Shown: one piece after another, positions 24,357 to 41,018 of the stretch
Numbering within the stretch: the first letter of the stretch is position 1
Layout of the letters: each line of letters begins with the position of its first letter
NCBI GenBank assembly: GCA_024434165.1
Contig: QMIW01000014.1
Location: 1 to 58,271 of the forward strand
Source of the DNA: Chloroflexota bacterium
Lineage (GTDB): Bacteria > Chloroflexota > Anaerolineae > Anaerolineales > Villigracilaceae
Direction: 5' to 3'
DNA: 58,271 nt
Made by a program: the position numbers and the translations under genes
The notes under the pieces: model-generated
Seen by the model: only the letters and a program-made list of their open reading frames with translations
The model's database searches: none
What the model was told of the DNA's origin: nothing

Positions 24357-24383
24357 GTAGCGCGAGATGGCATCTCGCGCTAC
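24357..24383. terminator. GTAG-footed palindrome acting as bidirectional terminator
   Basis: GTAGCGCGAGAT-ggc-ATCTCGCGCTAC, a perfect 12-bp stem followed by TTTATTTTTT on the plus strand. It separates convergent RNase J and mutY. On the minus strand its foot supplies the TAG stop codon of mutY. The same sequence motif lies at 18333-18357. Confidence 0.82.
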
Positions 24384-25414
24384 TTTATTTTTTGGGCGAT
24401 CTGCCGGTCCACTTTCCCCATCGGGTAATCGTCCAATTCGCTCAGGTTCACCCATTTCAAGTTTTTATCGTTGGGGATTGATAACGCCCGACATCGAAAT
24501 GGATACACCTGAATCCTAAAGTGGCTATACGCATGCGAGACAACACCCAGCGCCTCGCCTCGACGGACCCGCAGGCTGGCTGCTGCCTTCAAGGCGTTTG
24601 CCAACTCCTTTGCCGGGTCCTCCCCCACCCGCACGTTCGGGAACTCCCACATCCCTCCGAGCAATCCACCCGCCGGGCGTTGACTGAGCAGCACGCGCCC
24701 GCGTTCCACGATCACTGCCGCCGCGTGGGTATATTGCGGCGTCCGCTTCTTCGGCTTCAAGACGGGGCGTAAATCCTGCATGCCGTTTTCGCGCGCCTGA
24801 CACAACTTCACCAGCGGGCAGAGCAAACAGCGCGGATTCTTCGGCAGGCAGACCGTCGCGCCCAGTTCCATAAGCGCCTGGTTGTAGTCGCCCGCTTTTC
24901 CTTTAGGCAAATTCTTCGCCGCCAACTCCCACAGGATTTTTTCGCCAGCGGAGGAATCGGCGTACTCGCTCACATCAAACAAACGCGAGAGGACGCGGCG
25001 GATGTTGCCGTCGAGCGTTGGCTCGTCCATTTTGAAGGCAATGGATGCGATTGCTCCCACAGTGTAGCGACCGATGCCCGGAAGGGAGCGCAAGGCTTGG
25101 AGATCACGAGGCAGTTTCCCGTTAAAGTCCGAGGCGACGATCTTCGCGGCTTTGTGCAGGTTGCGCGCGCGGGTGTAATAGCCAAGTCCCTCCCAGGCGT
25201 TCAACACATCCCGCTCTTTGGCGTTCGCCAGTGTCTTCACGTTTGGAAATAATTTCATCCATTTTTCAAAATATGGAATGACCGTTTCCACGCGCGTTTG
25301 CTGAAGCATGATCTCCGAAACCCAAACGGCGTACGGGTCGGGATGGTTGCGCCAGGGCATGGGGCGGCGGTGTCTGGCGTACCATTTGAGCAGCGGGGTG
25401 GAGAGGCGTTTCAT
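24380..25414 (-). CDS. mutY: A/G-specific adenine glycosylase MutY
   Basis: Removes adenine mispaired with 8-oxoguanine (344 aa). The helix-hairpin-helix GPD core has catalytic Glu in SEIMLQQTRVETV and LPGIGRYTVGAI with the conserved Asp in TLDGNIRRVLSRL. The iron-sulfur loop is C-x6-C-x2-C-x5-C (CLPKNPRCLLCPLVKLC). A NUDIX-like C-terminal domain (WEFPNVRVGEDP) follows. The ATG directly abuts a 7-bp repeat array, with no Shine-Dalgarno sequence, and the stop codon is part of a palindrome. Confidence 0.96.
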   Translation of the reverse strand: MKRLSTPLLKWYARHRRPMPWRNHPDPYAVWVSEIMLQQTRVETVIPYFEKWMKLFPNVKTLANAKERDVLNAWEGLGYYTRARNLHKAAKIVASDFNGKLPRDLQALRSLPGIGRYTVGAIASIAFKMDEPTLDGNIRRVLSRLFDVSEYADSSAGEKILWELAAKNLPKGKAGDYNQALMELGATVCLPKNPRCLLCPLVKLCQARENGMQDLRPVLKPKKRTPQYTHAAAVIVERGRVLLSQRPAGGLLGGMWEFPNVRVGEDPAKELANALKAAASLRVRRGEALGVVSHAYSHFRIQVYPFRCRALSIPNDKNLKWVNLSELDDYPMGKVDRQIAQKIK

Positions 25415-29043: not shown

Positions 29044-30543
29044 TCAGTTGTCAGGGGCAAGGTCTTCCTCGATGGATTCGAATTGATTTAGGGCGGTTCG
29101 CAAGTCTTCCACGATCTCGGCAGCCAACACGTCAGGAGGCGGCAGGTTGGCAGAATCTTCCAACGACTCGTCCCTCAGCCAGAAGATGTCGAGGCTGACT
29201 TTGTCGCGCGCCATCAGTTCTTCGTAGGTAAAACTTCGCCAGCGACCAGACTCATTGGTTGACGACCAGGTTGGGGTGCGTTCGAAGCGGTTATCGGCAT
29301 GGAAACATTCCACGAATTCGTCGAGATTTCCACGCGCCAGCGGATTCGTCTTGAGCGTAAAGTCCATATTGGTGCGCAAGTCATAGATCCAGAGTTGCTT
29401 GGTCCACGGGGTTTCGGAGGCGGGCTTTCGGTCCAAGAAAAGAACGTTGGCTTTGACGCCCTGGGCGTAGAAGATGCCCGTCGGCAGCCGCAGGAGGGTA
29501 TGGACATCACATTCATGCAGGAGCTTTCTTCGTACCACTTCGCCCGCGCCGCCCTCAAAGAGGACGTTATCAGGAACGACGATTGCCGCCCTGCCGTTCA
29601 TGTTGAGGATGTTCTTGACATGCTGGACGAAGTTGAGCTGCTTGTTGCTGGTGGAAGTCCAGAAATCTTCACGGACGATGTTCTGCGCCTCGCGTTTGAT
29701 CTCGCCTTCGTCTGTGACAAAGGTGACGCTGGACTTTTTGCCGAAGGGCGGGTTGGTCAGCACCATGTCGAAGTATTGACCAGGATGGGAGGCGAGGCTA
29801 TCCGCCACGTGAATGGGGCTGCGACCCGTTGATCCATCGCCATTTGCGCCGATGCCGTGCAAATACAAATTCATCACGCACAGGCGCGCGGTATTGTCCA
29901 CGATCTCCCAACCATGCAAGGCGTGATGACGAAGATGATTCCACTGGTCGCGGTCGAGGGTATTGTGTGCGGCGATGTAATCGTGCGCGGCGAGCAGGAA
30001 TCCGCCTGTGCCTGCGGCGGGATCGCAGATGGTTTGACCGGGCTGCGGGCGCATGACATCCACAATCGCCTTGATGAGGGGACGCGGCGTGAAGTATTGA
30101 CCCGCGCCGCTCTTGGTATCCTGCGCGTTCTTTTCGAGCAAACCTTCGTAAATCTCGCCTTTGACATCAATATCCAAGCCGATCCAGGTCTCGCCGTCAA
30201 TCAGTTCGATCAGGCGGCGGAGTTTGGCTGGGTCTTGAATTTTATTCTGCGCCTTACGGAAGATTACGGGAATCAACCCCGCGCCTTGACCCAAGCCAGT
30301 AAGAATTTCACGGTAATGACTTTCGAGCGCATCACCATCGAGCCGTTGCAGGCTCGCCCAGTTGTATTGAGGCGGGATGGCGCTCGGTCTGCCGAGCATG
30401 GACGCGTTTTCCGCATCCATTTTCAGAAAGAGCAGGTAAGTAAGTTGCTCGACGTAATCGCCATAGGACATGCCGTCGTCACGCAGGACGTTGCAGTAAT
30501 TCCACAGGCGTTGGACGATGGTAGTAGAGGAGGGAGTGTTCAT
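29044..30543 (-). CDS. hsdM: Type I restriction-modification methyltransferase subunit HsdM
   Basis: N6-adenine DNA methyltransferase (499 aa). The N-terminal helical domain is followed by SAM motif I (DPAAGTGGFLLAAHDY) and the catalytic NPPFG motif (FDMVLTNPPFGKKS). It forms the M2S complex with HsdS. It is last in the R-S-(RAYT)-(HEAT)-M locus, an unusual order. The ATG directly abuts a 7-bp-period array and has no visible Shine-Dalgarno sequence. Confidence 0.95.
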   Translation of the reverse strand: MNTPSSTTIVQRLWNYCNVLRDDGMSYGDYVEQLTYLLFLKMDAENASMLGRPSAIPPQYNWASLQRLDGDALESHYREILTGLGQGAGLIPVIFRKAQNKIQDPAKLRRLIELIDGETWIGLDIDVKGEIYEGLLEKNAQDTKSGAGQYFTPRPLIKAIVDVMRPQPGQTICDPAAGTGGFLLAAHDYIAAHNTLDRDQWNHLRHHALHGWEIVDNTARLCVMNLYLHGIGANGDGSTGRSPIHVADSLASHPGQYFDMVLTNPPFGKKSSVTFVTDEGEIKREAQNIVREDFWTSTSNKQLNFVQHVKNILNMNGRAAIVVPDNVLFEGGAGEVVRRKLLHECDVHTLLRLPTGIFYAQGVKANVLFLDRKPASETPWTKQLWIYDLRTNMDFTLKTNPLARGNLDEFVECFHADNRFERTPTWSSTNESGRWRSFTYEELMARDKVSLDIFWLRDESLEDSANLPPPDVLAAEIVEDLRTALNQFESIEEDLAPDN

Positions 30544-30585: not shown

Positions 30586-31431
30586 TTACTTTTTCTTGTG
30601 TTTCCTACGGGCTTTCTTAGCCTGTTTTTGTTTTTTCTTTTCCTTCTTTTCCTGGTCGCGCTGGCGGCGTCCTTCTTCGCGGCGCGTTGCTTTCTCGCTT
30701 TCCCATGCCAACTTGGGATCTTTCGCCCAGTAAAAACGCGGCGGCGGGGTGAGACGTTTTTTCAACAATCCAACCAGGATTTGGAAATCTTCGAAATCTC
30801 CCAGCACGGAAATATCCACCGCGTCTGCCTGATAGGCGCGTTCCACCAGCGGAGCAGCCTCGACCGCTTTTAGTTCAGCCAGGTAATCAATCAAGAAGGC
30901 ATTGATCGTCTCGCCATTTTCGGCGTATCGTTCCAACGCGGCCTGCAGAGCCTCCACGCAGGCGCTTCGATATTCGGGATTTTGTTTGCCGATCTCCGCC
31001 AAGCCATGGGACATCGTAACGGAAGCCCATTTGAATTTATCGGGCTTCAATAAATAATCGCGGAGGGGCGGGATACTCGCTGGACCGATCATCCCCAGAA
31101 CTTCGGGAATGTCTTCCATAAGCCAATCGGCATTCTCATCTTCATTCCATACGATCAGGCGCACCAGGGATGGAATGGCTTGCTCCGCCTTCAACTGTCC
31201 AAGCGCCCGCCAGGCATGGATGGGGGCGTAGGATTCAGGCGCGTTGCTTACATCTTCATCAGGCCAGAAGGATTCGATGTCGTCAAGAATGCGAATCAAT
31301 TCTGGAGTGTGCTCATCCGTTATGCCGAGTTCCAGATAATTGTGCCATTCGGAAACGCGAGCACTTTTTTCGCCAAGCGAGACGAGCGCCAAAACGGGGG
31401 CAGAAAAATCTTTTGGAAAAGTGTATGCCAT
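30586..31431 (-). CDS. HEAT-repeat-like protein with lysine-rich tail
   Basis: A 281-aa helical protein resembling DUF1186 or HEAT-like proteins: repeated helical pairs such as APIHAWRALGQLKAEQAIPSLV, EVLGMIGPASIPPLRDYL and INAFLIDYLAELKAVEAAPLVE. The last ~40 residues are extremely basic (RREEGRRQRDQEKKEKKKQ and more Lys), suiting nucleic-acid binding. It lies between the RAYT and hsdM genes in the restriction locus. Function is unknown; it may be a passenger or accessory protein. Confidence 0.75.
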   Translation of the reverse strand: MAYTFPKDFSAPVLALVSLGEKSARVSEWHNYLELGITDEHTPELIRILDDIESFWPDEDVSNAPESYAPIHAWRALGQLKAEQAIPSLVRLIVWNEDENADWLMEDIPEVLGMIGPASIPPLRDYLLKPDKFKWASVTMSHGLAEIGKQNPEYRSACVEALQAALERYAENGETINAFLIDYLAELKAVEAAPLVERAYQADAVDISVLGDFEDFQILVGLLKKRLTPPPRFYWAKDPKLAWESEKATRREEGRRQRDQEKKEKKKQKQAKKARRKHKKK

Positions 31432-31441
31432 CGCAATTTTC

Positions 31442-32188
31442 CTAATCCTCTGTTCCTAATATTAAATCCGTCACATCGTCCAGATATTCCTCCACTTTTT
31501 CGGGTGGCGGGATCTTGCGGAGGTTTTCGAGATTGTCTCTGTCCATCTTCCAATTTACGGGGTTATCAATGATGTATTGCCGAATGGCGTTTAATTCACG
31601 ATCGTTGCGGATGATGTGTTCGTAATAATTGCCTTGCCAAAATTTCGCGCGGCGTGACGGGTCGTTGATCTCGACCCAATCCAAATATACCTTGAATACC
31701 AACGATTTGAACGCGCCAACAATATCACCCAACGCGGGCGCGGCGTTGATTTTTTGCGGTTGCGGTATTCTGTAGGGACGGGGCTTGCCCCCGTCCGATG
31801 GTGCGCCCCCGTCCGATGGTGCGCCCCCGTCCGATGGTGCGCCCCCGTCCGATGGTGCGCCCCCGTTCAGGATACCCGCAGGGGGTATCCCTACATCCCC
31901 ATCCGTGTTTTGCGCAATCTGGACGCCCGCAAGGGGCGTCCCTACGTTGTTCCATACGATGAAATGGATGTGATTTGGCATGACAACGAATTCATCCAAT
32001 TCAATCGTCGGGAACCATGACGGCAACGCGTACCAGACATCATGGATGATTGCATTGACAATTGGATCATCCAAGACATGTTCGCGGTTTTTCGTGCAAA
32101 TGGTGACAAAATACGCGCCCGCGTTGTGGTAATCATACCCCTTCAATCGAATGGATCGCCGATGATGTTTGGTGGGATCATATTTCAT
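31442..32188 (-). CDS. REP-associated tyrosine transposase (RAYT, Y1 family)
   Basis: A 248-aa single-strand DNA transposase of the Y1/HUH class. The N-terminus RRSIRLKGYDYHNAGAYFVT, the HUH-type motif NHIHFIVW, and the catalytic-Tyr region FWQGNYYEHIIRNDRELN are intact. The start at 32188 has GGAG at 7 nt; the longer frame runs through repeats. The middle of the protein holds repeat-derived sequence (GAPSDG four times, GKPRPYRIP). RAYTs bind and move REP hairpins with a GTAG foot, and such hairpins lie within and around this gene. Confidence 0.93.
   Translation of the reverse strand: MKYDPTKHHRRSIRLKGYDYHNAGAYFVTICTKNREHVLDDPIVNAIIHDVWYALPSWFPTIELDEFVVMPNHIHFIVWNNVGTPLAGVQIAQNTDGDVGIPPAGILNGGAPSDGGAPSDGGAPSDGGAPSDGGKPRPYRIPQPQKINAAPALGDIVGAFKSLVFKVYLDWVEINDPSRRAKFWQGNYYEHIIRNDRELNAIRQYIIDNPVNWKMDRDNLENLRKIPPPEKVEEYLDDVTDLILGTED
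31772..31945. repeat. GTAG-footed REP hairpins and 18-bp tandem array inside the RAYT gene
   Basis: Three REPs: plus-strand GTAGGGACGGGG-cttgc-CCCCGTCC (31772-31796), and minus-strand GTAGGGATACCC-cctgc-GGGTATCC (31870-31894) and GTAGGGACGCCC-cttgc-GGGCGTCC (31921-31945). Between them an 18-bp unit (CCCCCGTCCGATGGTGCG) repeats four times at 31788-31859. All are in frame with the transposase. Confidence 0.88.
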
Positions 32189-32199
32189 ATTCATTCTCC

Positions 32200-32306
32200 G
32201 TAGGGACAGGGCTTGCCCCTGTCCCGGACATCCGCAAATGGACATCCGCAAATGGACATCCGCAAATGGACATCCGCAAACGGACATCCGCAAGGGATGT
32301 CCCTAC
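32200..32306. repeat. REP cluster upstream of the RAYT gene (two REPs and 14-bp tandem units)
   Basis: A plus-strand REP (GTAGGGACAGGG-cttgc-CCCTGTCC, 32200-32224) is followed by five 14-bp units starting GGACATCCGCAAA (32226, 32240, 32254, 32268, 32282). The fifth is completed to a minus-strand REP (GTAGGGACATCC-cttgc-GGATGTCC, 32282-32306), whose foot gives the hsdS stop codon. Confidence 0.9.
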
Positions 32307-33586
32307 AGTTTGCCCTCGAATGCGGACCGTAACACCGCCTGCCTCAGCCGTGACGCACGCGCCAGCCCCGCCTCCACCGCGGACTCGACCTCGCGGACCA
32401 CCGACAGCCGCCGCTCGACCTCCGCCACGATTCGCCTCTGTTCCTCCAGCGGGGGAAGGGGAACAGGAATTTGCTGTATACGGAAAAGAGCAAGTTTTGG
32501 TTGATTGGTAGAGATTGTCTTTTCAGCAATGGTCGCTTGACCAGATGGACTTGCTAAAGCAAAGTGCAAATACTTTGGCAAAATATCTTTGAGATTACAA
32601 ATCTTTGCCGCATTCTCTGTCAAATTTGCACCATTCAAAATTTCAGGTATTACGCCAGTCACTCCAATTGTGCCAGCAATTGAAATATAAACATCCTCAG
32701 TCGAGATTGTATATCGGCTAATCTGTTCTTGCGTTTCTTCCTTGAGATACTTCAAGTTCTCAGTATTGATTGTTCCATTTTCAAAATCTGTGACACGGAT
32801 ATATGGATACTCCGTTGGTTCATCGGAATATGTATGTTTTGCAGGCAATCTTTTTCCACCTTTTACTTCAGCAACATCGCCAACAGAGACCCACCTCCAC
32901 CCCTCAGGCAACTCACCCTCACCCCCGTCCCCTCTCCCAGCGGGAGAGGGGTGAGGGGTGAGGGCGCCGCTCACCGCCGCCTTGAGCACGGATGCCTTGT
33001 ACCGCCTCAACCCCGCGCGGACGCGCTCCAGCGCCGCCACGCCCGCCTCCAAGTCGCTGAACAGTTCCTCGATTCGGCTCACGATCCGTTCTTGCTCAGG
33101 GAGTGGTGGAAATGGTAGTTTTAGTTTGGCAAGATTTTTGCGAGAAATTCTTTTGCGTGTTGAGCCACTTTGTAAACTTTCAACATCGGCTCTAAATTGA
33201 GGCGAATTAATTGCGTGCATCAACCAGCGATGTTCGGCATTTTTGGTTCGAACAATGCACACATCAACTACAGTTACAGATTGTTTTTTATCGCCTGGAA
33301 AAATACAAGCCCTTCCAAGTGGGTCAGGCATACGTGCAATTAGCAAATCGCCTTTTTCAAGAAATGTGCAGCCAAGTTCTAATGCTTTCTCGTGAGTGAG
33401 AAATCGGTTTGATCTATTCCGATAATATCCATCGCCAACATCAGCCAATTGAATTAGGCGTATTTCGCCCTCGGGGTCTTGATCTTTGCTTTCAACCCAA
33501 TCACCATCAATAAAGACACCATCGGAATCTAAAACATCCTCAAGAGTCTTCCACTCCCAACCATCAGGCAAGCTCCTATTCACCAT
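32303..33586 (-). CDS. hsdS: Type I restriction-modification specificity subunit HsdS
   Basis: DNA-recognition subunit (427 aa) with two target-recognition domains and conserved helical spacers. The first TRD spans residues ~1-160 and ends in LPFPPLPEQERIVSRIEELFSDL; the second ends in IPVPLPPLEEQRRIVAEVERRLS. Between them, after SVLKAAVSGAL, lies TPHPSPAGRGDGGEGE. This is encoded by a palindrome (CCCCTCTCCC-agc-GGGAGAGGGG, around 32930-32955) inserted in frame. The TAG stop comes from a REP. TRD sequences are variable, so target site is unknown. Confidence 0.94.
   Translation of the reverse strand: MVNRSLPDGWEWKTLEDVLDSDGVFIDGDWVESKDQDPEGEIRLIQLADVGDGYYRNRSNRFLTHEKALELGCTFLEKGDLLIARMPDPLGRACIFPGDKKQSVTVVDVCIVRTKNAEHRWLMHAINSPQFRADVESLQSGSTRKRISRKNLAKLKLPFPPLPEQERIVSRIEELFSDLEAGVAALERVRAGLRRYKASVLKAAVSGALTPHPSPAGRGDGGEGELPEGWRWVSVGDVAEVKGGKRLPAKHTYSDEPTEYPYIRVTDFENGTINTENLKYLKEETQEQISRYTISTEDVYISIAGTIGVTGVIPEILNGANLTENAAKICNLKDILPKYLHFALASPSGQATIAEKTISTNQPKLALFRIQQIPVPLPPLEEQRRIVAEVERRLSVVREVESAVEAGLARASRLRQAVLRSAFEGKL
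32903..32975. repeat. In-frame palindromic insertion in hsdS
   Basis: CTCACCC...CCCCTCTCCC-agc-GGGAGAGGGGTGAGGGGTGAGGG within the hsdS inter-domain linker. Its core (CTCTCCC/GGGAGAG with flanking GGGTGAGGG) is the same as in the MITE-like copies flanking the PTS operon. Confidence 0.75.
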
Positions 33587-33607
33587 TTACCAATATCCTC
33601 TACTCTC

Positions 33608-33837
33608 TGTACGGGCGGGCCCTGCGTCCGCCCTGCTCGTTGGACGGGGGCAAGCCCCATCCCATGTACGGGCGGGCCCTGCGTCCGCCCTGCTCGTTGG
33701 ACGGGGGCAAGCCCCATCCCATGTACGGGCGGGCCCTGTGTCCGCCCTGCTCTTTGGACGGGGGCGAGCCCCATCCCATGTACGGGCGGGCCCTGCGTCC
33801 GCCCTGCTCTTTGGACGGGGGCAAGCCCCATCCCTAC
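33608..33837. repeat. 57-bp tandem repeat (four units) ending in a GTAG REP
   Basis: Exact 57-bp period with units at 33608, 33665, 33722 and 33779, each TGTACGGGCGGGCCCTG...CAAGCCCCATCCC, with few substitutions. The last unit ends as a REP on the minus strand (GTAGGGATGGGG-cttg-CCCCCGTCC, 33813-33837). The foot supplies the stop codon of hsdR. It fills the hsdR-hsdS gap. Confidence 0.92.
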
Positions 33838-36701
33838 GCATTCAACCTCTCGTTCAATTCATCCAATAACTCATTCAACCGCGTGCCAAAGACGCGCATC
33901 GCGCCCACCTGTCCGCCGCGGTTGAAGAACTCGCCGTAATTGAAATCCTCGGCATGGATTTCCAGGTTGACGCCGATGTGCGTCGCCACCTGATCCAGCC
34001 ACCAGCGCTGCTCGGGCGTGAAGGTCTTGCCCTCGGCTTCCTGCGCCTTCAACCAGTCCGCATAACGTTTCTGCACGCGTTCGGGATACGGCACCAGTTC
34101 ATCGTCCAACTGCACCGCATGACGCACCAGCGAAACCAGGTCGGTCAACACGCGCCGCAACCCCGCCCCGCGCACGCGGTCACGCTCCAACTGCGCATAC
34201 GCCCGCCACAACGCCTCCGTCGTCCACGCCCGCGGCGGCTGTGACAACGCCTCCGCCAATTGTTTCAATACATCAAATGTCAACCTGTCGGGGCGGGGCT
34301 TGCCCCCGCCCTTCTGGACAGGGGCGAGCCCTGTCCCTACGTCGCGTCGCGGGATCGAATACAAAATCTGCAACGCCGTGACCTCATCCTTATGCTCGGC
34401 GATGAACGCCTCGAACGACCGCACCAGCGCCCGCGCCCGCTCCGTCCCCTCCGCGCTGAACCCCGCCTCGATCAACTCATCCTGGCTCACCTCGTCAATC
34501 GCCTGCTCATGCCGCGTCGCCATCTCCACCAGCCGCACCCGCAGATCGGGATTGCCCGCCAACGGTCTCACCGCCTCCTCTACAACGTTGGGGTGAGGCT
34601 CGCCCCCGCCCTCCTGGATAAGAGCGAGTCCTGTCCCTACGATATCTGGATCAATCGCATCCAGCAGACGATTCGCCATCTCTGCCAACGAAAGCCCGCC
34701 GCTTCTTTCGCGGACCTCAGCCTGCTCTGCCGTCCCCAAGCGTTTGCCCAGCCTTGAGAGTCTTCCCGCCAGCGAACTGAGCGTATCCGCGTCCGTCACG
34801 CCCATCGCCACCGATTCCAGCAACTGCTTGAACGACTGCGTCCGTTTGCGTTCCAATGTCTGCGGGTCGCTCAACTCCTGGTCAACGATCCCCACCGCGT
34901 CAATCAATACGAAGCGATCCTTCGTCCGCGCATCCGACGTCACATTCTGCAACTCGGTCTGACTGACCACGCGCGTCCCGCGTCCCAGCATCTGCTCGAA
35001 CAACAGCCGCGACTTCACCGCCCGCATGAACAACAGCACTTCCAGCGGCTTGATGTCCGTGCCTGTGGCGATCATGTCCACGGTCACGGCGATGCGCGGG
35101 AAATAACTGTTGCGGAAGTCGCTGATCAAATCTTCGGGCTTCCTCCCCGTCACGCGATACGTGATCTTCTGACAGAACTCATCGCCCCTGCCGAACTCCT
35201 CGCGCGCGATCCGCACGATGTCTTCCGCGTGGCTGTCGTCTTTGGCGAAGATCAAGGTCTTCGGGACGATCTCGCGCTCGGGGAACATTTCCGTGAACAG
35301 TTTGTCGCGAAAGGTTCGGATGATGGTACGGATCTGATCAACGGAAACAACTTCTCGGTCGAGTTGATTCGGGTCGTAGGCAAAGTCATCCTCCAACTGC
35401 TCCCAGCGTTCACGCCGCGTCAGTCGGTCGCGTTTTCCGATCCAGAATCCTGCTTCCACGCTGCTGCCCTGCTCCGTGATCTGCGTCCGAATGCGATAGA
35501 CCTCGCCATCCACATTGACGCCGTCCGCCACCGCGCGCTGGCGTGAATATTCCATCACCAGGTTTTGGTTGAAGAACCCAAACGTCTGCTTCGACGGCGT
35601 GGCGGTCAGACCGATCAGGAAGGCATCGAAATATTCGAGCACACCGCGCCACAAATTGTAGATCGAGCGATGACACTCATCCACCACGATGAAATCGTAA
35701 TACTCGATGGGGAAGTTGGGGTTGTAGCGGATTTCCTTCGGCGGCTGGGCATCGAGCGTCGCGCCCATCTCGAACAGCGATCCCTCTTCGTTCGCCGCGT
35801 CGTACTCAGGCTCGCCGCTCAACATCGAATACAAGCGCTGGATGGTGGTGATGTGCACCTTGCTGACCGAATCGAGCACGTTGCTCTGCAAATGCTGGAC
35901 GTTGTATAACTCAGTGAACTTGCGTCCATCGTCGGGCGTGAGATACTGGTCGAACTCCTTGAACGCCTGCCGCCCGAGATTATTGCGATCCACCAAAAAC
36001 AAGACGCGCTTCGCCTTCGCATGCTTGATCAACCGATAGACAAAACTCACCGCCGTAAACGTCTTCCCCGATCCTGTCGCCATCTGAATCAACGCCCGCG
36101 GACGATTCTCCGCCAGAGATTTCTCAAGATTTTGAATTGCCTCTATCTGCGCACCCCACAAACCCGTGGTGATCAACGGGAATTGCGCCGGCATCTCGCG
36201 CAACCGCCCACGCAGGGTCGTCGGGGCAGGGTTTGCCCCTGCCCTTTCTGCGCCGCGGTCAGTCTGGATGGGGGCAAGCCCCGTCCCTACGTCCACCCAC
36301 TCCGCCAACGTCTCAGGACGATGGAACGTAAACACCCTCCGCGACCGCGGCTCGGGGTCGCGTTCATCACGGAAAAACGTCTCCACCCCCGTGCTCTCAT
36401 ACAAAAACGGCAGTGGCAGCGTTACATGCGGAATATTCGCAGGTAACCCCACCGAATACTTCGCCGCCTGCTCCGCCACTCCCGAAAGCGTCACACCTTC
36501 GGGCTTTGCCTCCACCACTCCCACCGCTTTGCGATCCACGAACAAAAGATAATCCGCCTCCCCCGTCTCCAATGGAAACTCGCGCACCGCCACCCCGCGC
36601 GAAGCATACAAATTCATTTCTGCGCGCGATTGTACAGTCCAACCGCAGGCGGTTAGTTGCTGGTCAATGTTGATGCGGGCGAGTTCTTCGGGGGTGGGCA
36701 C
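33834..36701 (-). CDS. hsdR: Type I restriction endonuclease subunit HsdR
   Basis: Translocase-nuclease subunit (955 aa). N-terminal PD-(D/E)xK nuclease: GEADYLLFVDRKAVGVVEAK. Superfamily 2 helicase: Walker A MATGSGKTFTAV, DECH box (VVDECHRSIYNLW), LTATP, and motif VI-like LLFEQMLGRGTRV. The C-terminal domain binds HsdM/HsdS. Three repeat-derived in-frame inserts are visible: residues ~138-161 and two 18-residue copies of VGTGLAxxQxGGGxPxPx, all outside the catalytic motifs. The TAG stop is donated by a REP. Confidence 0.95.
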   Translation of the reverse strand: MPTPEELARINIDQQLTACGWTVQSRAEMNLYASRGVAVREFPLETGEADYLLFVDRKAVGVVEAKPEGVTLSGVAEQAAKYSVGLPANIPHVTLPLPFLYESTGVETFFRDERDPEPRSRRVFTFHRPETLAEWVDVGTGLAPIQTDRGAERAGANPAPTTLRGRLREMPAQFPLITTGLWGAQIEAIQNLEKSLAENRPRALIQMATGSGKTFTAVSFVYRLIKHAKAKRVLFLVDRNNLGRQAFKEFDQYLTPDDGRKFTELYNVQHLQSNVLDSVSKVHITTIQRLYSMLSGEPEYDAANEEGSLFEMGATLDAQPPKEIRYNPNFPIEYYDFIVVDECHRSIYNLWRGVLEYFDAFLIGLTATPSKQTFGFFNQNLVMEYSRQRAVADGVNVDGEVYRIRTQITEQGSSVEAGFWIGKRDRLTRRERWEQLEDDFAYDPNQLDREVVSVDQIRTIIRTFRDKLFTEMFPEREIVPKTLIFAKDDSHAEDIVRIAREEFGRGDEFCQKITYRVTGRKPEDLISDFRNSYFPRIAVTVDMIATGTDIKPLEVLLFMRAVKSRLLFEQMLGRGTRVVSQTELQNVTSDARTKDRFVLIDAVGIVDQELSDPQTLERKRTQSFKQLLESVAMGVTDADTLSSLAGRLSRLGKRLGTAEQAEVRERSGGLSLAEMANRLLDAIDPDIVGTGLALIQEGGGEPHPNVVEEAVRPLAGNPDLRVRLVEMATRHEQAIDEVSQDELIEAGFSAEGTERARALVRSFEAFIAEHKDEVTALQILYSIPRRDVGTGLAPVQKGGGKPRPDRLTFDVLKQLAEALSQPPRAWTTEALWRAYAQLERDRVRGAGLRRVLTDLVSLVRHAVQLDDELVPYPERVQKRYADWLKAQEAEGKTFTPEQRWWLDQVATHIGVNLEIHAEDFNYGEFFNRGGQVGAMRVFGTRLNELLDELNERLNA
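34287..34340. repeat. In-frame inverted REP pair in hsdR (54 bp, C-terminal copy)
   Basis: Plus-strand GTCGGGGCGGGG-cttgc-CCCCGCCC and minus-strand GTAGGGACAGGG-ctcgc-CCCTGTCC converge with 4 nt between them. Translated it gives VGTGLAPVQKGGGKPRPD. Confidence 0.9.
34587..34640. repeat. In-frame inverted REP pair in hsdR (54 bp, second copy)
   Basis: Same architecture and length as the copy at 34287-34340 but more decayed. Minus-strand foot GTAGGGACAGG; the other arm begins GTTGGGGTGAGG. Translated it gives VGTGLALIQEGGGEPHPN. Confidence 0.88.
36220..36290. repeat. In-frame inverted REP pair in hsdR (71 bp, N-terminal copy)
   Basis: Plus-strand GTCGGGGCAGGG-tttg-CCCCTGCCC and minus-strand GTAGGGACGGGG-cttgc-CCCCATCC separated by about 20 nt. 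The coding strand reads VGTGLAPIQTDRGAERAG and continues to NPAPT before the helicase domain. Confidence 0.88.
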
Positions 36702-40953: not shown

Positions 40954-40988
40954 GTAATTGGTAACTCGTAATTACGAATTACCAATTA
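40954..40988 (-). repeat. Heptanucleotide-period array between rpsI and mazG
   Basis: GTAATTG, GTAACTC, GTAATTA, CGAATTA, CCAATTA at 7-bp spacing. The array is also nearly self-complementary and could fold as a hairpin at the end of the ribosomal operon. Confidence 0.75.
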
Positions 40989-41018
40989 CACCACTTCGTG
41001 TGTCGGAATGGAAATATT

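Follow-up and report, generated by a model that had tools for sequence, protein, structure and literature searches.

REP dimers read in frame in a Chloroflexota hsdR gene, and the changing occupants of the same loops in related genomes

Bacterial REPs are mostly described as extragenic. How, then, do such elements come to be read as protein at three places within one type I restriction subunit, and what occupies those places in related organisms? The hsdR gene in question lies in a 58,271-nucleotide stretch of DNA (hereafter the window) from a Chloroflexota bacterium of the Villigracilaceae (contig QMIW01000014.1). A preliminary description had claimed that two 54-bp inverted REP pairs and a third, longer pair write peptides into HsdR.

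The hsd locus and its three in-frame dimers

On the minus strand the order is hsdR, a four-unit dimer array, hsdS, two REPs with a 14-bp repeat, the RAYT gene, a HEAT-repeat gene and hsdM (Table 1). The HEAT-repeat gene, at 30586-31431, lies between RAYT and hsdM. HsdR has a helicase motor and an EcoEI-type C-terminal domain, with hsdM and hsdS nearby; its HSDR_N match (21.8 bits) was under the cut-off of 25.1. A 19-base REP pattern, searched on both strands with up to three mismatches, matched the window 19 times, where 100 shuffles averaged 1.13; a single dimer may appear more than once in this count.

Table 1. Features of the hsd locus, in window coordinates
Feature	Position	Strand	Details
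hsdR, type I restriction subunit	33834..36701	-	955 aa, GTG start; Pfam ResIII, EcoEI_R_C, SWI2_SNF2, Helicase_C
REP dimer, site 1	36220..36290	-	71 bp; codes VGTGLAPIQTDRGAERAGANPAP, HsdR residues 138-160
REP dimer, site 2	34587..34640	-	54 bp; codes VGTGLALIQEGGGEPHPN, HsdR residues 688-705
REP dimer, site 3	34287..34340	-	54 bp; codes VGTGLAPVQKGGGKPRPD, HsdR residues 788-805
Tandem array, four 57-bp REP-dimer units	33608..33837		between hsdR and hsdS
hsdS	32303..33586	-	TAG stop supplied by a REP head (32306-32303)
Unrelated in-frame palindrome in hsdS	32916..32964		codes TPHPSPAGRGDGGEG
Two REPs around 14-bp tandem repeat	32200..32306		between hsdS and RAYT start
RAYT (Y1/HUH transposase)	31442..32194	-	250 aa; HIH and Tyr motifs
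Three REPs and 18-bp minisatellite in RAYT frame	31772..31945		directly after HUH strand
hsdM	29044..30543	-	Pfam N6_Mtase 2.2e-67

All three pairs were found as claimed, encoding the peptides given for them, and they lie inside one uninterrupted frame of 955 codons. At sites 2 and 3 the elements amount to 18 codons each. As the site-1 dimer is 71 bp long, its two arms are read in different phases, and flanking bases restore the frame. GTAG stands at one end of the imperfect palindrome, as in GTAG REPs and REPINs; in all three dimers this head is at the 5' end of the coding strand and is read GTA GGG (Val-Gly), while the far head is degenerate (GTC or GTT). The shared orientation noted in the preliminary description is therefore real, but it adds little, the dimers being nearly symmetric. 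Folding was strongest at site 3 (34285-34346, z about -5; on both strands none of 200 shuffles did as well), followed by site 2 (34584-34645, z -3.4, 1 of 200); for the long pair at site 1 z was only -2.0 and 5 of 200 shuffles were as good.

The dimers had been placed outside the catalytic motifs. They are clear of what we take to be the HsdR motifs (E-x-K 64-66, Walker A 209-214, DECH 341-344 and QMLGRGTR 570-577), but the site-3 dimer falls within the Pfam EcoEI_R_C match (759-953). In an AlphaFold model the inserts coincide with predicted segments of pLDDT below 50 (139-157, 691-704 and 783-804); the model is weak (pLDDT 67, pTM 0.45), and eight of its 11 such segments are not at inserts.

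The end of hsdR is also set by a REP, its TAG stop being the outer GTAG head (33837-33834) of the four-unit array. Elsewhere in the window, a GTAG...CTAC palindrome at 24357-24383 gives the TAG stop to a MutY-like gene (24380-25414), and an intergenic palindrome at 40954-40989 (GTAATTGGTAA...ATTACCAATTAC) resembles a CCAATTA repeat that is read in frame in the GlyRS of other species.

The same sites in HsdR homologues

An inverted-repeat search along 36 HsdR genes, the window's included, found 71 against 47.2 expected in synonymous shuffles and was too noisy to use. In a folding scan of 35 HsdR genes, 25 of 3555 scanning windows had z below -3.5 and none was above 3.5; five of the 25 were at the three sites (L069 site 1, L071 and L042 site 3, and L111 site 2 twice) and the others were elsewhere. 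None was in the hsdR studied here, which counts against the explanation preferred below. The contents of the sites were therefore assigned by visual inspection of the DNA and peptides.

Site 1 is empty in the homologues L070, L072, L041, L042 and L073, whereas L069 has a homologous REP insert equal in length to that of the window and L071 a different GTAG palindrome. The REP at site 2 is absent from all relatives aligned. At site 3, L041 and L073 have nothing inserted, the GTAG palindromes of L069 and L042 differ from that of the window, L072 has a short palindrome, and in L070 and L071 there is an unrelated one that codes AKSAK (L040 and L071 being one identical HsdR sequence). The preliminary description had looked to an alignment of homologues to prove insertion, and these relatives, with empty sites or other palindromes, provide it.

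Nor is hsdR disrupted. Two assemblies carry it whole: L080 (SZPG01000011.1, Chloroflexi bacterium CFX6), assembled separately, has an identical HsdR with the same three inserts, and over 14,865 bp differs from the window by 3 bases and a 36-bp gap, the gap lying in the minisatellite. Against its four closest relatives hsdR has dN/dS of 0.146-0.166, about 0.15, compared with 0.085-0.105 among those four, so that the window's line may be somewhat less constrained. By this measure hsdR is under purifying selection, and the intact frame together with the low dN/dS suggests that it is functional; the inserted peptides are probably expressed.

Inserts at these sites are also seen in other phyla. In the HsdR of L098, from the Gammaproteobacteria, a CTCTCCC...GGGAGAG palindrome is read in frame at sites 1 and 2. 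A similar element is present at site 1 in L111 (Proteobacteria SKS3.bin107, 257-kb contig), and at site 2 some 245 aa with a HUH-like motif are inserted in this protein. The insert opens with a GTAG repeat (GTAGAAGCGGCGTCCCGCCGCTT, read Val-Glu), has a second copy inside, and is continuous with a single 1229-aa HsdR frame (L111:5818-9504), with Pfam HsdR domains flanking it on both sides. Pfam gave no Y1_Tnp match in this HsdR at 0.001; NCBIfam REP_Tyr_transpos matched the insert at 1.3e-11 and 44.6 bits, the cut-off being 80. From its sequence the insert appears to be a RAYT-like frame.

REPs across the genus and the loops of GlyRS and GlpK

With zero mismatches the 25-base REP consensus has 72 copies, in 14 of the 57 genomes of the genus, against 2 for a reversed control, which gave 0 in the window's own genome. 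In that genome pattern and control are equal at two mismatches (43 vs 43), and looser matches carry little meaning. The 72 copies, all of which were examined, form 62 elements. By a codon-usage script set to a low threshold, which asked for a score above 0 on each side and a frame open all the way, 22 of the 62 read through genes in frame. They lie in GlyRS (4), HsdR, methionine synthase and an M20 peptidase-like protein (3 each), glycerol kinase and an FAD oxidoreductase (2 each, one of the latter in the window's own genome), an unnamed protein without a Pfam match (2), and, once each, a homocysteine methyltransferase/MTHFR protein, an acetyl-CoA synthetase-like enzyme and MoeA. For every gene other than hsdR, Pfam was run on one member, and the remaining members were named by likeness. 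The M20 cases, which resemble two half elements flanking conserved sequence, are the least clear, and the 22 exclude the RAYT inserts, which failed the script. The FAD oxidoreductase of the window's own genome (L165, contig C48) also has a second, unrelated palindrome-like peptide, LPLPQGEGLGVRG, which is absent in its relative L140.

Among the remaining 40 elements, the TAG of the head closes an upstream open frame of at least 80 codons in 15, as a raw count; 12 of these frames also have a coding score of at least 0.07. The Val-Gly frame is used in 13 of the 14 read-through rows that have a same-strand head. Counted by site the preference is about 9 to 1, and the MoeA insert, read by eye, would be a second case against; these site counts were made after inspection of the data. 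The suggestion in the preliminary description that REP pairs spread as frame-neutral coding inserts fits if taken as survivor bias. The RAYT of the hsd locus, the donated stop codons and the renewed filling of the same loops in relatives are additions to that description.

The occupants can be followed in more genomes in two of these enzymes, GlyRS and GlpK. GlyRS was matched in 46 of the 57 genomes and its loop anchored in 44 of these (L238 and L251 were dropped). The loop exceeds the short form in 36 of the 44: 16 have GTAG types (A 4, B 8, other 4), 11 an AAGTC/GACTT type, five a CCAATTA type, one a GAGAGGGG type and three an unclear pattern, where filled loops can be as short as 15 to 18 residues and loose patterns define the AAGTC and CCAATTA classes. 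The eight short loops have at most 13 residues, seven being near PVQKNGKLLAH. On the GlyRS gene tree the loop labels need 27 changes and do not cluster: shuffled labels average 28.9, and 38 of 200 shuffles come out as low. The starred branches (10 of 41 inner branches) alone force 4 changes for type A and 6 for type B, and both type A (p-AU 0.0006) and the AAGTC class were rejected as single clades.

In GlpK, 30 loops were read from the 55 genomes with a match. GTAG-type inserts have exact GTAG and CTAC ends in L198, L199, L214, L221 and L222 and one altered end in L208, L210 and L218; L201, L212 and L217 have a GC-rich palindrome; twelve have no insert (L203, L204, L206, L207, L209, L211, L213, L216 and L224-L227), and the remaining seven are short or unclear. 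Sequence identity over the two genes agrees with the tree: genomes G011 and G004 are 93% identical in GlyRS and in GlpK, yet both loops are filled in G011 and both are empty in G004. In the closest pair, G072/G021 (98-99%), the inserts are common to both except for a VGAS duplication.

Origin of the inserts and comparison with known systems

The RAYT of the locus matches Pfam Y1_Tnp (1.5e-06, 28.7 bits against a cut-off of 23), and its MPNHIH and Tyr regions align with those of relatives, as for a Y1/HUH protein with a catalytic Tyr. With NCBIfam NF047646 (REP_Tyr_transpos) it scored 60.4 bits, under the curated cut-off of 80; since relatives without the insert (L071 and L083) score 57-58, the shortfall is not caused by the insert. 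The minisatellite inside it (31787-31866) has four GGAPSD units in the window and six in L080, and is thus a variable array that keeps the frame.

REPs stand both upstream of this gene and inside it. The 4.4-Mb genome has 13 zero-mismatch REPs on 4 contigs, often as inverted pairs; dispersed as they are, they are low in copy number, and 9 of the 13 lie at one locus, within 31772-36290, along with the RAYT. The genomes richest in REPs are this one (13), G029 (12) and G035 (11), and only these three have a RAYT match of at least 70% identity over at least one aligned segment; their RAYT frames hold REPs in the same loop. Against a link, G003 and G014 have 10 REPs each and no RAYT match (G003) or a distant one only (G014), in assemblies that are incomplete (77 and 71%), and the HUH motif is lost in the RAYT of G035. 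In 64 of 72 heads a C or T precedes GTAG, and no other of the eight upstream positions is as strongly biased; this agrees with the cleavage at CT described for TnpA-REP (PMC8266576). REPs can cluster around the transposase gene in some species (PMC2817692). Co-location, the pattern across genomes, with its two exceptions, and the base preference suggest that the RAYT of the hsd locus, or a close relative, most likely moved the REPs. It cannot explain all re-occupation, because the AAGTC and CCAATTA occupants of GlyRS are not GTAG REPs; in a weak test of dispersal these non-GTAG repeats had 1 to 12 exact core matches each, and 0 in shuffles.

Within the genus a link between Y1 genes and type I operons looked strong: among the matches listed, with two lists compared by eye, Y1 genes of IS200-like and RAYT subclasses lie in or next to hsd operons, sharing their strand, in at least eight other genomes (L170-L177), adjoining hsdM or hsdS; in L172 and L174 the Y1 gene is between frames matched to hsdR and hsdM. 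At class level, one of 20 relatives of one such Y1 protein was near an hsd gene, some contigs ending close by, and a general association of Y1 genes with type I operons is therefore not claimed.

The best explanation, which we hold to be highly probable, is RAYT-driven insertion of REPINs into tolerant loops, with loss of frame-breakers and fast turnover between species. GTAG-type REP dimers would have been inserted at hsdR loops able to take extra residues, the copies being made by the local RAYT or a close relative through single-strand cleavage and strand transfer. Frame-breaking insertions would have been lost, and in most survivors the GTAG head would be read as Val-Gly or, where a gene ends, would supply its TAG stop. 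The same loops would stay open, with different families replacing one another between related species. A further step, possible but on balance doubtful, is that one loop of an essential enzyme is a standing landing site, filled, emptied and refilled by unrelated palindromes nearly once per species, so that repeats rather than point mutation set its sequence. New insertions may be drawn to the loop by a hairpin already there or by some local feature of the DNA.

It is unlikely that the REPs are instead kept for a function, the hairpin acting in the mRNA (pausing, stability) or the peptide tuning the enzyme. Stems inside genes are still largely complementary, the site-1 inserts of the window and L069 share their length, and one RAYT loop retains VGTPLAGV...GGKPRPY in both the window and G029; however, intact stems are also expected from recent insertion alone, and the same loops are filled by unrelated sequences in related species and, as G011 and G004 show, can be empty in a close one, which is evidence against a required sequence. 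Tolerance rather than benefit is the probable basis of their survival. Origin of the palindromes in place, with the loops diversifying by replication slippage and local template switching at short repeats and no transposition, would account for the 18-bp and 14-bp minisatellites that adjoin REPs, for the two-unit difference in the 18-bp array between the two assemblies and for the VGAS duplication that separates G072 from G021. It is improbable, as one 25-base consensus recurs at many unrelated places (72 matches in 57 genomes, 2 when reversed), a RAYT lies in the locus and the base preceding GTAG is biased. Although these are MAG contigs and repeats can mislead assembly, an assembly or binning artefact or a broken hsdR is scarcely credible and was rejected on the single open frame, the low dN/dS and the three inserts of the second assembly, and the same insert type recurs in essential genes of other genomes.

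Related species in which a given loop of an essential enzyme is filled in some and empty in others form a natural series for testing directly loop tolerance and the rate of repeat turnover, and also whether mobile DNA regularly supplies new protein segments. The RAYT-like frame read through in the proteobacterial HsdR of L111 is the extreme case.

The preliminary description drew a parallel with the RPE of Rickettsia. The likeness is functional, as both are palindromes read in frame in functional genes, but the RPE tag is CGTC (PMC3733652) and the hsdR heads are GTAG, so membership of the RPE was rejected. Its statement that such elements are not known for Chloroflexota is doubtful: GTAG repeats occur in Chloroflexi, e.g. 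GTAG-23 of T. roseum, and in-frame GTAG REPs in genes of several species, tRNA synthetases included (Di Nocera 2013, PMC3733652). The same paper describes donation of a REP TAG stop to flanking genes and names flexible linkers as a likely place for in-frame REPs. The elements reported here resemble its GTAG REPs and REPINs in the GTAG head, the hairpin, head-to-head dimers, in-frame siting, TAG stops and Chloroflexi hosts. In-frame GTAG REPs, stop donation and Chloroflexi GTAG families are thus already published (2013). The terms 'restriction', 'hsd', 'glycyl' and 'glycerol kinase' are absent from its main text, and no report of REPs in Chloroflexota HsdR, GlyRS or GlpK, or of RAYTs in hsd operons, was found among the titles and abstract openings listed from the open-access literature.

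Like known RAYT/TnpA-REP systems (Nunvar 2010, PMC2817692; PMC8266576), the locus has a Y1/HUH protein with inverted REPs flanking it; unlike those described there, the gene is within a type I restriction locus and has in-frame REPs inside itself. Different REPs at about one site are described in PMC3733652 as a single case, recB of two Xanthomonas, whereas here the same loops carry different families across one genus. The kind of event is known, and it is its repetition at the same loops that is striking; this repeated re-use across a genus, and the RAYT-like frame in HsdR, go beyond the published record that was found.
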